64,000 nt of DNA, taken from the NCBI GenBank assembly GCA_014904985.1, contig MU128963.1, forward strand, positions 90,438 through 154,437, read 5' to 3'. Position 1 is the stretch's first letter, and each line of letters starts with the position of its first letter. This document shows, in pieces, positions 1 through 11,755 of the stretch. Under the pieces are notes generated by a model that was not told the DNA's origin, made no database searches, and saw nothing but the letters and a program-made list of their open reading frames with translations. Origin of the DNA: Hydnum rufescens UP504 (Eukaryota; Basidiomycota; Agaricomycetes; Cantharellales; Hydnaceae). A program made the translations under genes and the position numbers.

Positions 1-230
1 CTTCGCCTTCACAGCAACTGCAGGCTATTTGGTGCGTTCACCTATGCAGGTTCACATGTCATCACACTTTGACTCATCAACTGCTACAGGCTCTGCATTC
101 CAACAGATAATGACAGGCCCTTTGGATTCTTGCACTCAGGCTTTTTCTCCGAATCCACAGCCTCAGGTATTTCCTATCAGTTGTGGCATTCCACCCAATC
201 TGTTATGCACTGGTTAATGTATCTGTTCAG
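1..230 (+). other. Upstream of the micro-exon gene: possible 5' exon plus intron
   Basis: An open frame from 29 to 217 encodes a Ser/Thr/Gln/Pro-rich stretch with no recognised domain. A possible intron runs from a GTATTT donor at 167 to a CAG acceptor ending at 230, just before the exon with the G-domain-like motif. I could not join a 5' exon to the exon at 231 in a convincing open phase, so the true start of the gene is unknown and may lie left of the window. Confidence 0.3.
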
Positions 231-3200
231 TGCCTGTTATTGGAATTTTCACCAAGTTGGATGGAAGAAAGACCAAAGTGGAGGTTGATACTCTAGGCCT
301 TGCTCCCAGCCCGTCCGATTTCCTCAATCATGCCCCAGAGGTGGATCGGAAAGTAGCTGAATTTGTCAATGGACTTGAGACAGAATTTCGGAAGCAGCGG
401 TACCCACCTGCTGGATTCATCAGGATTGGGAGTATGTATACTCTATCTGAGCAGCAATTTTGGCACTTAAATCTATGGCTTAAAGACATGCATGAAGTCA
501 CTGAGCAGAGTGTGGCATCATGTAACCAACTTCTTCAAGCCACTATGGGTGCTCTTCCCCATGAGACCCAGAGATCAATGCTCAGGCTCACAGTTTGGAA
601 AAGAAACCGTCGGGTTCATACCATATTTATCTTAAAACGGTGAGTGCAGATGTCCAACATATTGGTAGTAGCAAACAATCATCTTCATCTCCTAGTGTCC
701 TTGACAGTAGAGGTGAGGGTGACATCTCAAGCTGTGTCAATGAGATGATGGTACAATTTAACTATATTCAGGGAGCATTGTGACCAAAGCCCCAGGACTC
801 GGGGAAGATGAATTACGCACAGATAAGGGGTTCAGAATTCTCATGGTAAGTGAGTGCATCACTTGCAAGTAATGTACTGAGTGCATATCTGCTATAACTG
901 TGACACCTGGCTGTGACCATGTGGTACATTATTGGTTTGTTGGATGGTATCAACAATGTAGGAGGTGTGCCTGCAAGTGCTAACCTTCAGTGCACAATGA
1001 CTGGCTTACATGTCACTTTTTTGGGGCATTGATAATGTAGTTGGTCAGTCCAGGTTTCCAACAATTTCATACATGGAGCTGGCTGATACATCTTTTGGTA
1101 CCACTGGGAATCCAGTATGTGAGTCTGGACCTCCCACAATTCCATGCATGGCCACTCCCTGATTTGGGTCCTGGTGGGATCTGTAATGTGCAGGGAGTGA
1201 GTTTGCATCCCTTAGTTGATGAGACTACTGTCCAGATATCTTTTGGTGTCATGGATAACATAGCATGTGAGTATGAATCTCCCACCTTTATATTGACACT
1301 CTGATCCACTGATATGTGACATTGACAATGTAGGTGGTAAGACTGCACCTCTCACAGTTTGATATGGGATTGGTACCTGATAGAGCATTTGGTGGCATGA
1401 ACAACATACTGTAGAATGTGTGTTGGGTGCCTCAACTATTTGGTGTGTGATGACTGAACTCTTGGTGACATCAACAACACAGGATGTATGTTCAGTTGTC
1501 TTTGAATTCAATGCTTGTTTGCTGACTGGTAAACCTGTTGTTGACATTCACAATGTAGTATGTGAGTGCAGAGTGAATATGGGGTCCATGGCTGATACAT
1601 TTTTGGTGTGATATAAAATAGGAGGTATATCACCCAGTATTCAGAAGTGCATGCTGGCTGATGCATCATTTGGTAATGTAGTATGTAAGTCAAGGATTTC
1701 AATAAGTCAGCCATGATCACTTGTTGATCCATGATCTGATGACATGGATGATGTAGAGAGTAAGTCTGGATCTTGTGCAATTTGATGTCTGTGGGTAGCC
1801 TGACATTTGTTTTCTCTGTTGTGGACACTGTAGGGAGTAAGTCAGGATCTCTTTCACCCTGATGTGTGCTCCCTCATGGATACATCATTTGGTCCTGTTG
1901 ACACCACAGCCTGTTAGTTCAGATGTTTCCAATTTGATGTGTGGTCACTCACAAATCCATTGTCTGTTAATCCTGATAACATAGTATGTAAGTCTGGATC
2001 TCCTGGCACCATCACTGGCTAACACATCACTGGATGACATCAACAATTAAGAATGTAAGCTTCCCTTCATGTTGGTGTGCAATCATTGGCTAATTCATCT
2101 TCTGGTGACATTCACCAGTTGGTGGGCTGGTTCTCTTACAATTTGATGTGGGGCCCTGGCTGATATGTCAAGTGGTATCTACAATGTAGGTGGTGAGTCT
2201 GTTTCCCCACTATCATTAATCACCAGCTGCACATTTTTCAATGCATCAATAATTTAGGAAGCAAGTGTATGTCTCCCACCATCTATGGGTGGTTGCTGGG
2301 CTGAAACATCTGTGGTGGCACTGACAATGTAGAATGTAAGTCTGGATTTCTTACTATACAAGCTAGGGTTGTTGGCTAATATATGTTTGGTGGCATTGAC
2401 CATGTAGGCTGTAAGTCTGGTTCTCTTCTGATGCAATGCATAGGTGTGGATGATGTTTCTTTGTCTGACATGGACTATGTAGGAAGTAAGGCTGGATATC
2501 ACAATGTAATCCATGGTCACTCTTTGATCCTCTATTTAATCCCATTGATAATGAAGAATGTAAGTTGGGATCTCTTCTAATTTAATGTGGGGTCACTGGC
2601 CAATATCTTCATTGGTGACATGAACAATGTAGCATGTAAGCTCTGATCTCTGCCACCTTGACACACAATCACTGGTTGATCCATCTCTGGATGACATTGA
2701 CAACCTAGGAGGTAAGTCTGGCCCCATTTTGATTCAGTGTATGGTGACTGGCTGATCCCATCAATGACCTCAACAATGTAGCTGGTGGGCCTATGACCTC
2801 TCACAATGTGATGAAGGATTATAGGCTGATTCATCATCTGCCCACACTGACAATGTAGGAAGTAAGTCACACCCCCTTCCCTTTGATACATGGGTGTTGG
2901 CTGACACATTGTTGGTGGCATGGACAATGTAAGGTGGTGAGTTTTGCATCTCTCACCCATTTATTGGGTGATCCTTGATTTATAGATCTTTGGTGGCTTT
3001 GATACCATAGTATGTAAGTCCAGATCCCAGATTGATGGATGGATTGTCTCTGTCTGATTCATCTTTTGGTGGCATATGCAACCAAGAGGGTAGGTCTGGA
3101 TCTTTCAATTCCATGCACCATTGCTGGCTAAGTTATTGTTTGGTGGTGTTAGAGTGTAAGATGATATTTTTTACTTGATGCAGGAGCTGGGCTGAGACAT

Positions 3201-6200
3201 TGGTTGGCCACCTGACCACTGTAGGATGTAAGTCCATATCACCTACCATCTGAAGAATGGTTAAACATCTTTGGGTGGCATTGACAATGTAGGAAGTAAG
3301 TCCTAATGTAAATTTGACACATTTTCCCTTGCTGGCATATTTTGACAGCATTGACAACATAGGATGTAAGCTTGGATGGGTCAGAATTTAATGCATTGTC
3401 CTTACTGATTCATCATTCATTGACAAACACAGCTTGTATGTCCGGATGTCTTAGAATTCAATTTATTCTCCCTTGCTGATTCATCTCATGGTGATATTGA
3501 CAACATAGTATGTAAGTCTGGATGTCTTAGGATTCAATGCCTTCTCCCTTACTGATTTATCCATTCATGTCATTGACCACATAGCTTGTAAGTCTGGATG
3601 TCTACAAACTCAATCTATTGTGCTTTCCTAATCCAGCTTTTGGTGCCATTGACAACATAGGGTGTAAGTGTCTGGATGTCTTAGAATTCAATGCATTGTC
3701 CCTTTCTGATTTGTCTTTTGGTGCCATTGACAAAGGATGTAAGTCTGGATGTCTGTGAATTTAAACATTGTCCCTCCTTGATTCATCTCTTGGTGGTATT
3801 GGCAACATAGCCTGTAAGTCTGGATGTCTTGGAATTCAATGCATTGTCCCATATTGATTCATCTTTTGGGGACACTGACAACATAGGGTGTGAGTCTGGA
3901 TGTCTTAGAATTCAATGTATTGTCCTTGGTTGATTCAGCTTTTGGTGGCATTGACCACACAGCATGTAAGTCTGGGTTTCTTAGAATTCAATGAATTGTC
4001 TCTTCCTGATTCATCATTTGCTGGTGTGATAACATAGTATGTATGTCTGGATATCTTAGAATCCAATGGATTGTCCCTTCCTAATACATCTTGTTGGTGG
4101 CATTGATGACATAGTATGTAAGTCTGGATGGGCTAGAATTCAATCAATTGTCCTTTGCTAATTCATCTTTTGGTGGCATTGACAACATAGTTTGTAAGTC
4201 TAAATGCCTTATATTTCAATAATTTTGATTCATCTTCTGGAAACATTGACAATATAGGGTGTAAGTGTCTGGAGGTCTAAGAATTCAATGTATTGTCCTC
4301 TCCTGATCCATTGTTTTATGGCATTGGCAACACAGGCTGTAAGTCTGGATGTCTTAGAATTCAATGCATTGTCCTGCACTTATTCAGCTTTTGGTGACAT
4401 TGACAATATAGCTTGTAAGTCTCAATGTGCTAGAATTCAATGTATTTTCCATTTCTGATTCATCTTGTGGTGGTGTTGACAATACAGTTTGTAAGTCCCC
4501 ATGTCTTAGAACCCAATATATTGTACTTTTCTGATTCATCTTTGGTGATATTGGCAACATAGGGTGTAAGTGTCTGGGTGTCATCCAATTTGATATATTG
4601 TCCCTTGCTGATCCATCTTCTGATGGCATTGACAACATAGCCTGTAAGTCTGGCTGTTTGAGAATCCAATGTATTTTCCATTGCTAATTCATTTTTTGGT
4701 GGCATAGCTTGTAAGCCTGGTTGTCTTAGAACTTAAGGTGCATTCTTTGCTGATTTATCTTTTGGTGGGCTTGACAACATAGTTTGTGAGTTTGGATGTC
4801 TTATAACTCAATGGATTGTCCCTTCCTGACTCATCTTTTGGTGGCATTCATGACATAGGGTGTAAGTGTCTGGGTATCTTGGAATTTAACATTTGTCCTT
4901 GTTAATCCATCTTCTGGTGGCATTGGCAACATAGGATGTAAGTTGGGATGTCTTAGAATTCAATACATTGTCCTTTCCTGATTCATCATTTGGTGGCATG
5001 AGCAACATAGGTTGTAAGTCTGGATTTCCTAGAATTCACTGCATTGTACTTTGCTAATTCATGTTTTGGCGCATTGATGACATAGCATGTAAGTATTGAT
5101 GCCTTAGAATTCAATGTATTGTCCTTTTCTGATTCTTCCTTTGGTGGCATTGACAACACAGAATGCAAGTCTGGATGTCTTAGAATTCAATCCATTTTCC
5201 TGTCCTGATTCATCTTTTGGTGACATTGACAATATAGCTTGTAAGTCTGGATGTCTCAGGATTCCATGGATTGTCCTTTTCTAAGTCACCTTATGGTTGC
5301 ATTGAAAATATAGCTTGTAAGTCTGGATGTATAAGAGTTGAATGGATTGTCCCTTTCTGATTCATCTCTTGGTGGCATTGACAACATAGCATGTGAGTTC
5401 TGATCTCTTATAATTTGGTGTATCTTCTTGACTAATTCATCTTTGGATGGCCTGGACAATGTAGGAGGTAAGTCTGGATGTCTTGGAATTCAATGCATTG
5501 TCCTGTACTGAACTTGTCTTTTGGTGCCACTGACAACATAGCCTGTGAGTCTTCAACTCTTGGGATTCAATGTATCACTCACTGATATCCTCCTTGATGG
5601 TTTCCTCAATATAGGAGGTCTGTCCAAATCACCTATTCTTTGGTTCATGATGTCTAGTCAGTCTCTTACTTGGTGGCCCCTAGACACAGGATGTAAGCCC
5701 ACAGTTCTTACCCCTTACTACTCAGTGCATTGTCCCTGGCTCATGCACTACATTCACAATGTAGCTTGTGAGTTCTTAGATGTATACAATAGAATCACAT
5801 TTTAGTTTCCCATTGCAATCCCTATGTTTGGATTTACTCCAGGATAATGTAAGTCACCCCTTATGTGCCAAAATGATTCTATCCAATGGCAATATCATTC
5901 ATTCCTCACCTCTCCTTTCAATATATCTGGTAAATATCATTAATTTATGCTCCCAACCCTACCCATCTCTCACTTAACCCTTATTAGGTACTCAAACATG
6001 CAGGGGATCCAGGCTTGTGTGCCCTTGCTCAAACTATCAGTGAGTTTAGATTTTCACTAATTTCCCACCTCCAGGAAGTCTAAGCACTCATTACAGCATC
6101 ACCTTTCTGTCCCATCGAAGCCTAATGTTCAATATCTGGTGTTTATTTGTTGTCAGTGTTGAGACTGATTCCAAATGCACAAGACACTGCTTAAACTGGG

Positions 6201-6491: not shown

Positions 6492-7145
6492 TGTCAGGGT
6501 TCCACCCTTTTTCTGATCTACTCCAGTCAACTCTTGCCAACTCCAATCTACTCTGGTCTACTCCAGACCACTCCTCTGTCTGTCCACTCCACTCCACCCC
6601 TGCTTTCCCTGAGTTTGGTTTGCTTCCAGCTTGCCTCCAGTTTGCTTCTGATTTAATTTAATTTCTTTTTCATTTCCTGTTGCTTCTGACATGCTCCCAC
6701 ACATTCCTGTTCCTGTCTGCTTTCCCCCTGCCCACCTTCCTGTTCCTGCCCCCCTGTAACCATCTCCTGTTTAGTGATCACTCCCCCATAGTATAGCAAT
6801 CATGTATAAGTAGTCTGGCAGTGAAGTCCAGAGACCTCAGCTTTGGTCTCAGGATTTCTGCTGTAACTCCAGACTACAGGTCAGCCTTCTTGTATTCCTT
6901 GTTCATATTACATAATCTCAGGATTTCTGCTGTTACTCCAGACTACAGTTCCAAGTTTCTCTTAGTGTGATCCACAAGCTAAGGACCAGCCACTCCCAAT
7001 TCTGCCTAGTCCCTTCTGGGCTGCTGGACTGCTCCTCCAGTCTCTCCTGCCTTGTTATCTCATTCTTTCCTGGATTCTTTCAGACTTAGCTGGATTATTT
7101 GTGTTTACATTTGTTTGGTGCCCTCATCACAGCATGGCCCTGACA
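6492..7145. mobile_element. LTR, probably solo, of an LTR retrotransposon
   Basis: The segment begins TGTCAGGG and ends CCCTGACA, a perfect 8-bp terminal inverted repeat with the canonical TG...CA ends. The flanks ATTTC and ATTCC may be a decayed 5-bp target duplication. It contains a TATAAG box near 6805 and two copies (near 6850 and 6918) of a motif starting TCAGGATTTCTGCTG and ending CCAGACTACAG. The left part (6510-6600) is rich in short CTCCA/CTACTC repeats. No gag, protease or RT reading frame lies on either side, so it is either a solo LTR or one end of a lost element. The strand cannot be set with certainty, but the TATA box suggests transcription to the right. Confidence 0.8.
6805..6811 (+). 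promoter_or_regulatory. TATA-like box in the LTR
   Basis: TATAAGT lies in the middle of the LTR, just before the repeated CAGACTACAG motif. This is the expected place for the U3/R promoter if the element reads to the right. Confidence 0.4.
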
Positions 7146-11404: not shown

Positions 11405-11755
11405 ACACTCACATTCGTAAACTTGGACATTTGAAAAATTCAGATGCCCAAAAACTTGAATGTTCATAACCTTGCACATTCGTAAACTCGCATATTTGCA
11501 AACTCGCACATTCATAAACTCGCATATTTTCAAACTCGCATATTTTCAAACTCACATATTTTCAAACTCGCATATTTTCAAACTCACATATTTTCAAACT
11601 TGCGCATTCGTAAACTTGCATATTTGCAAACTTGCGCATTCATAAACTTGCATATTTGCAAACTCGTGCATTTGTAAACTTGCATATTTGTAAACTCAGA
11701 TGTCTGTAAACTCAGGTGTTTGTAAACTCAGATGTTCATAAACTCAGATATTTGT
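11405..11755. repeat. Minisatellite, 16-17 bp unit
   Basis: About twenty degenerate head-to-tail copies of a unit close to CAAACTCGCATATTTT. Variants include CATTCGTAAACTTGCAT and, at the right end, TGTTTGTAAACTCAGA. The central copies (about 11,520-11,600) are nearly identical and the edges are decayed. It lies between the DUF6532 relic and the LINE fragment. A short open frame across it is an artefact of the repeat. Confidence 0.85.

Follow-up and report, generated by a model that had tools for sequence, protein, structure and literature searches.

The stretch of DNA that we analyzed, hereafter the window, comprises 64,000 nucleotides (nt) of the Hydnum rufescens UP504 genome (GenBank assembly GCA_014904985.1, contig MU128963.1, positions 90,438 to 154,437, forward strand), and it opens within a GTPase gene whose coding sequence continues into an array of introns separated by single codons. 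The gene starts upstream of the window, at window position -449 (contig C55:89988). In our curated model, eight GTPase exons supply 294 codons, the last of which spell GFRILM in phase 0, and are followed by 66 single codons, the pair GAT AAT, a 36-nt exon, and the codons for E, V, and stop, for a total open frame of 376 codons. The array encodes the C-terminal tail of the GTPase. Its 68 introns extend over 846..6003 and enclose 66 exons of 3 nt (the first at 962-964 and the last at 5765-5767) and one exon of 6 nt, and an ordinary 35-nt intron (6040-6074) lies beyond them (Table 1). At five places, where the automatic path had fused units or passed over one, we completed the model manually. An earlier interpretation made from the letters of this stretch (the sequence-only reading) had counted 68 units with 66 gaps of 3 nt and one of 6 nt, and the curated model returned the same counts. 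That reading had placed the array at 846..5987; its start holds, while the last array acceptor lies 16 bases further on, at 6003. The reading did not mention the GTPase or its paralogues, nor the conservation of the 5' peptide and the hypervariability of the codons, all described below.

Table 1. Parts of the GTPase gene and its intron array (window coordinates)
Feature	Position	Strand	Basis
GTPase exon 3, 3' end (exon begins at window -138)	1..31	+	gene model
GTPase exon 4	90..166	+	gene model
GTPase exon 5, TKLD motif	231..431	+	gene model
GTPase exon 6	486..639	+	gene model
GTPase exon 7, 17 nt	696..712	+	gene model
GTPase exon 8; ends GFRILM, phase 0, at first array donor	772..845	+	gene model
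68-intron array; first intron 116 nt, last 155 nt, most 72-74 nt	846..6003	+	site-profile paths, gene model, shuffles
One-codon exons 1-33 with introns; 5' part common to paralogues, ELYGHVNDYEYRGPYNLVENAENHELEVYRSDE	962..3295	+	gene model, paralogues; joined in relatives
One-codon exons 34-66 with introns; variable part, mostly NNT codons, closes EPEDL	3296..5767	+	gene model, codon composition, unit pairs
76-bp tandem repeat inside array; 29.6 copies, 72% matches	3348..5575	+	Tandem Repeats Finder
6-nt exon GAT AAT	5843..5848	+	gene model
36-nt exon GIQACVPLLKLS; homologous in other loci	6004..6039	+	gene model
Last exon, E V stop	6075..6083	+	gene model

Among the 69 donors of the window gene, 35 read GTAAGT, 12 read GTGAGT, 2 start with GC, and the remainder are weaker; the acceptors are TAG (50), CAG (14), and AAG (5). 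The junction pattern YAGNNNGTRAG occurs 49 times in the window, with 48 of the matches inside the array, and none of 100 dinucleotide shuffles of the window reached this number (mean, 7.0; standard deviation, 2.8). Across the genome, a strict two-unit pattern gave 786 + 450 matches compared to 0 + 1 in the reversed control. We modelled 23 oriented stretches, which hold 620 of these 1236 matches and 1577 modelled exons, and when exon length was left free between 0 and 30 nt, 1165 of 1240 exons were 3 nt long, a result that is not fully blind, since 3-nt junctions served to train the site profiles. The introns of these stretches measured 42-118 nt, with a mode of 73. Of the 75 exons of other lengths, 37 fall in four loci (L010, L018, L022, and L023) whose frame is broken by exons of 1, 2, 4, or more nt and which look like pseudogenes or assembly errors. 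Of 568 introns of ranks 1-30, 500 have a branch-like YTRAY motif 7-45 nt upstream of the acceptor, and its distance to the intron end peaks at 30 and 9 nt; four stretches were excluded from this count, and shared descent of the units accounts for part of the signal. The longest array, in L024, contains up to ~99 tiny exons in succession.

The spliced proteins begin MWKSIRKHFK and contain GPANAGKTT and TKLD, which we take to be the G1 (GxxxxGKT) and G4 (TKLD) motifs of a GTPase. Comparison with named GTPase families found weak matches at most, among them Der/EngA and Arf-like GTPases. The protein of L020, a second clean gene that is built alike and whose frame is also open, gave only weak G-domain matches in Pfam, with scores just under the cut-offs. 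The 27 aligned members matched 12 families, none of them NACHT or ANK, and neither an NB-ARC nor a NACHT domain was found in family proteins by Pfam and profile searches. Outside Hydnum, a protein search returned GTPases that are ~30% identical in Galerina and Psilocybe, plus metagenome proteins. The predicted structure of the GTPase had a mean predicted local distance difference test score (pLDDT) of 72.8 and a predicted template modelling score (pTM) of 0.73, with low confidence from about residue 271 on. Five database GTPases of the family (P0006, P0008, P0012, P0024, and P0025) carry acidic repeats, such as VPDEQ and VSDEE, before or at the G domain, which constitute a second variable region.

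The window gene is not alone in this architecture. We located 50 places in the H. rufescens genome that encode a GTPase of this family, two of which lie 1.8 kb apart on contig C243 and may be one locus. At 44 of the 50, the array pattern was detected no more than 12 kb 3' of the GTPase and on its strand, and inspection of the sequence at L032 (contig C96) added another, so that array evidence exists at 45. L032 is the most diverged paralogue found, and its array is short and spells a different string of codons; given that it is diverged and yet carries an array, the architecture would be old within the family. Conversely, a GTPase lies upstream of 30 of 34 arrays, among those listed by a restrictive pattern. 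A pattern built on the L-E exon pair gave 75 matches compared to 12 in the reversed control, and 68 of the 75 sit 3' of a GTPase of the family. By rough extrapolation, the whole genome may hold ~3,100 one-codon exons. No intronless copy was found when the genome was searched for one. None of the 25 deposited Hydnum gene models that we examined carries the tail, and annotation overlooks such genes.

Read in phase 0, the 5' codons of the paralogues spell a common string near ELYGCENDYEYKASDNLDHENAEHDELE-VYRRDE with synonymous changes (GAG/GAA, GGG/GGA, and TTG/CTG), followed by a stretch that differs greatly between paralogues in length and sequence and then by a short common end. Several 5' columns are invariant, such as E1, Y9, Y11, L27, and Y31. 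Only 4 of 1472 codons are in-phase stops, all of them in L017, L022, and L023, compared to 37 expected from base composition, or 12 when just the 378 codons that do not end in T are counted.

Evidence that the exons are joined comes from nine database proteins, encoded on short contigs (931-1641 bp), that read past FRILM. The tail residues joined number 33 in P0045, 29 in both P0038 and P0039 (probably one transcript), 11 in P0040, 9 in P0042, 8 in P0041, 4 in P0043 and P0046, and none in P0020. The GTPase introns were likewise absent where they were spanned: introns 3-7 in P0045; 5-7 in P0039, P0042, and P0043; and 6-7 in P0038, P0040, P0041, and P0046. The DNA-like relatives P0027, P0036, and P0037 are read through the GTPase introns, which indicates that the sources of such database proteins do not splice by prediction. 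In six proteins, the residues beyond the joined codons correspond to a genomic array intron of matching rank. The matches were 21/22 residues after codon 4 of L020 and L013 for P0043, 10/10 in the intron after codon 8 of L020 for P0041, 6/6 followed by a stop in L011 for P0045, 6/6 for P0042, 18/22 for P0046, and 17/21 for P0040. When each tail was compared to a single locus, 26/33 residues of P0045 matched L011, 24/29 of P0038/P0039 matched L029 (modelled from the fourth codon on), 11/11 of P0040 matched L018, 9/9 of P0042 matched L022 and L023, and 8/8 of P0041 matched L013 and L031. We infer that the contigs behind these proteins represent partly spliced RNA. The sequence-only reading had proposed one-codon exons set between introns, with an amino acid gained per unit and the frame kept; the open 376-codon frame and the up to 33 consecutive exons joined in relatives support this. 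The outcomes that it had set against itself (an untranscribed region, removal as a single intron, or splicing at a few sites) are contradicted for the 5' part, in relatives only.

Some of these database proteins bear on the order of intron removal. P0019 and P0046 are both on 1304-bp contigs and may come from one contig; if so, GTPase intron 5 was kept while the later introns and four array introns were gone. P0040 and P0041 likewise begin directly after intron 5. We considered strict 5'-to-3' removal and found it unsupported, given that P0019/P0046 suggest that intron 5 can stay after later introns leave.

Between closely similar units, codon positions 1 and 2 differ far more than intron sites do. 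We compared 72 pairs of mutual nearest-neighbor units with at least 95% identity in the flanking intron bases, excluding L010, L018, L022, and L023 here and from the codon composition analysis. Codon positions 1 and 2 differed in 43 of 144 cells and intron sites in 69 of 4536, a ratio of 19.6. The ratio was 32.8 in the variable part (27 pairs; 25/54 compared to 24/1701 control intron sites; p = 1e-27) and 7.5 in the 5' part (9/68 compared to 38/2142; p = 8e-6). A version that used all 784 pairs at least 97% alike gave mismatches of 0.63, 0.64, and 0.05 at positions 1, 2, and 3 and 0.012 at control sites; we set it aside given that the control sites were used in choosing the pairs and that large arrays such as L017 were overweighted. 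In the variable part, 562 of 609 codons end in T, and these encode mainly G, H, L, D, and Y and rarely S, T, or C. The first two codon positions are not independent of each other (chi2 = 124), and neighboring variable-part codons are identical 83 times out of 550, with 60 expected. Homogenization of the units combined with selection for different residues would be the simplest account of these patterns. C is found at codon position 3, just before the donor, in 1 of 1472 codons although a change from T to C would be silent, and this near absence makes position 3 a poor neutral control.

Taken together, the phase-0 frame from GTPase to stop, the architecture and codon string shared with paralogues, and the exons joined in relatives lead us to conclude, with a probability of about 80%, that the window gene belongs to a family of ~50 GTPase genes whose C-terminal tails are encoded by dozens of one-codon exons, 66 of them here. 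Under this model, each ~73-nt intron would be recognized by intron definition, and neighboring introns would be removed stepwise, because a gap of 3 nt leaves no room for two spliceosomes side by side. The partly spliced relatives are consistent with such stepwise removal. The intron-plus-codon unit would be duplicated, lost, and homogenized in the manner of a minisatellite, each gain or loss altering the protein by one residue with no frameshift, while selection would diversify codon positions 1 and 2. The product would be a variable, fast-evolving tail on a signaling GTPase, most likely used for recognition, by analogy with what has been proposed for the variable C termini of fungal NOD-like receptors (NLRs).

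Several observations weigh against this conclusion. Phase 2 is full of stops, and phase 1 is, like phase 0, nearly stop-free in most loci, so the case for phase 0 rests on the flanking exons, the synonymous changes, and the joined relatives. Over 37 aligned 5' columns, identity was 0.70, 0.74, and 0.78 at the three codon positions and 0.80 in intron interiors; the codons are no more alike than the introns over these columns, and we therefore dropped codon conservation as evidence of purifying selection. The contigs of the joined proteins stem from relatives or other loci rather than from the window gene, with best exon identities to this genome of 83-96% for P0039 and 88-93% for P0042, the two proteins searched. 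None of the nine proteins continues beyond exon 33 into the variable part or as far as the C-terminal exons. Each ends within, or short of, an array intron that was retained, which leaves complete splicing unproven. In P0020, no array intron was removed and the last residues are unmatched. P0038 and P0039 end SRYHID, with no match at the expected rank; the corresponding bases are present in the intron after TAT in L017, L027, and L029, and use of a cryptic acceptor may account for this end.

We considered that splicing of the array could be combinatorial, with each donor fitting each later acceptor in phase 0 and subsets of the codons giving many tails per gene. This is possible, though we regard it as unlikely. 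The tail exons of the window gene are all whole codons, so skips would keep the frame, and the deposited model P0044, itself a prediction, joins ILM to one later residue and then to an intron-like stretch. A precedent exists in the truffle nank genes, which papers that refer to them describe as alternatively spliced (PMC4986451, PMC3689799, PMC10197012, PMC9815663). However, the codons of P0038-P0046 follow locus order with no clear skips: the matches are complete for three tails (11/11, 9/9, and 8/8), and order is kept in the other two (26/33 and 24/29), at loci with gaps in their models. Moreover, no two isoforms of one locus were among the sequences seen. Equally tentative is a broader proposal of a codon-cassette system, in which the spliceosome would build a recognition tail residue by residue, in-frame choice of donors and acceptors would give each gene a library of tails, and the cassettes would be duplicated and reshuffled in the germ line, with just two nucleotides of each 76-bp unit, codon positions 1 and 2, near saturation.

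It is more doubtful that the array is a tolerated satellite that spreads selfishly within the final portion of the gene, is spliced inefficiently, and truncates most messages within it, leaving a tail of little function. All nine proteins that read past FRILM stop within the array, and some copies look broken (L010, L022, L023, and part of L018). Against this, an open frame by its nature ends at the first retained intron, and such proteins therefore over-represent unfinished RNA. In-phase stops are also few, the frame is kept at most loci, and the invariant columns and the excess of codon changes over intron changes argue for a product that is used. We consider it very improbable that a mutational mechanism aimed at two bases per unit, rather than selection, drives positions 1 and 2, and we know of no such mechanism. 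Two bases near saturation beside near-identical neighbors would be expected of it, but the 5' part has invariant codon columns, block copies within L018 that are 100% alike retain their codons, and the residue preferences and dependence between positions also speak against it. A noncoding satellite or chance motif, for which the 76-bp repeat (3348-5575) reported by Tandem Repeats Finder might speak, was ruled out by the shuffles, the reversed control, and the open frame, and the codons joined in relatives also contradict it.

Elsewhere in the window, a Pfam search of 10 neighboring open frames gave no match. A tandem repeat of 16/32 bp with the unit GCACATTCGTAAACTCGCATATTTGCAAACTC lies at 11474-11755. 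The stretch at ~6640-7090 shares 77-93% identity with DNA that follows the arrays of L010 (in inverted orientation), L017, L025, and L028; it holds an inner duplication and looks like a dispersed element, perhaps one resembling a long terminal repeat.

The one-codon exons of Hydnum can be set beside several systems in which exons are minimal or repeats diversify. The closest is the NACHT-ANK (nank) family of the truffle Tuber melanosporum, with "tens of codon-sized microexons" or "dozens of 3 bp mini-exons," which citing papers trace to Iotti et al. 2012, Fungal Biol 116:261-275 (PMC4986451, PMC3689799, PMC10197012, PMC9815663). This precedent answers the sequence-only reading, which knew of no described gene of this kind. 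As presented in those papers, nank resembles the Hydnum family in its dozens of 3-bp exons, its expansion, and its occurrence in an ectomycorrhizal fungus, and its mini-exons are said to diversify a recognition domain. Unlike the Hydnum family, it is from an ascomycete, contains NACHT and ankyrin domains, and is described as alternatively spliced, whereas the Hydnum proteins are basidiomycete GTPases without a NACHT or ANK match, of which only partly spliced forms were seen. The Hydnum family is thus not a member of nank and, by analogy, would work like it. A second parallel is found in the high-identity WD, ANK, and TPR repeats of fungal NLRs, reported as near-identical repeats in which a few codons vary under positive selection (PMC4986451, PMC9815663), much as units of the Hydnum array are near-identical around a few hypervariable bases; repeat homogenization plus diversifying selection has been described for them (PMC4986451). 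The NLR repeat unit is protein, whereas the Hydnum unit is almost wholly intron plus one codon; although these units are homogenized elsewhere, two bases in each vary almost to saturation.

With regard to splicing, the 1-nt exon of Arabidopsis APC11 is likewise too small for exon definition, and its authors propose intron definition with stepwise removal (PMC4674806); that case, as reported, involves one tiny exon in one gene, compared to dozens of consecutive ones in Hydnum. Recursive splicing at zero-nt exons, described in flies and vertebrates, also involves abutting acceptors and donors and stepwise removal. Those sites leave no residue, whereas 3 nt remain between acceptor and donor at each Hydnum site and a codon is kept in the product. 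The Hydnum arrays offer a natural substrate for studying how spliceosomes handle introns 3 nt apart. The schistosome micro-exon genes (MEGs) and aphid bicycle genes share with the Hydnum family many small exons and rapid evolution as families; their exons are longer and their proteins secreted, whereas the Hydnum exons are one codon each and lie behind a GTPase domain. Introner elements are dispersed near-identical introns in unrelated genes, with target-site duplication; of the Hydnum L-E exon-pair matches, 68 of 75 sit behind a family GTPase. Together with the ascomycete truffle case, the Hydnum family suggests that arrays of one-codon exons may have arisen more than once in fungi to vary protein tails, and the Hydnum case is a rare design in another phylum and protein family rather than the first of its kind.

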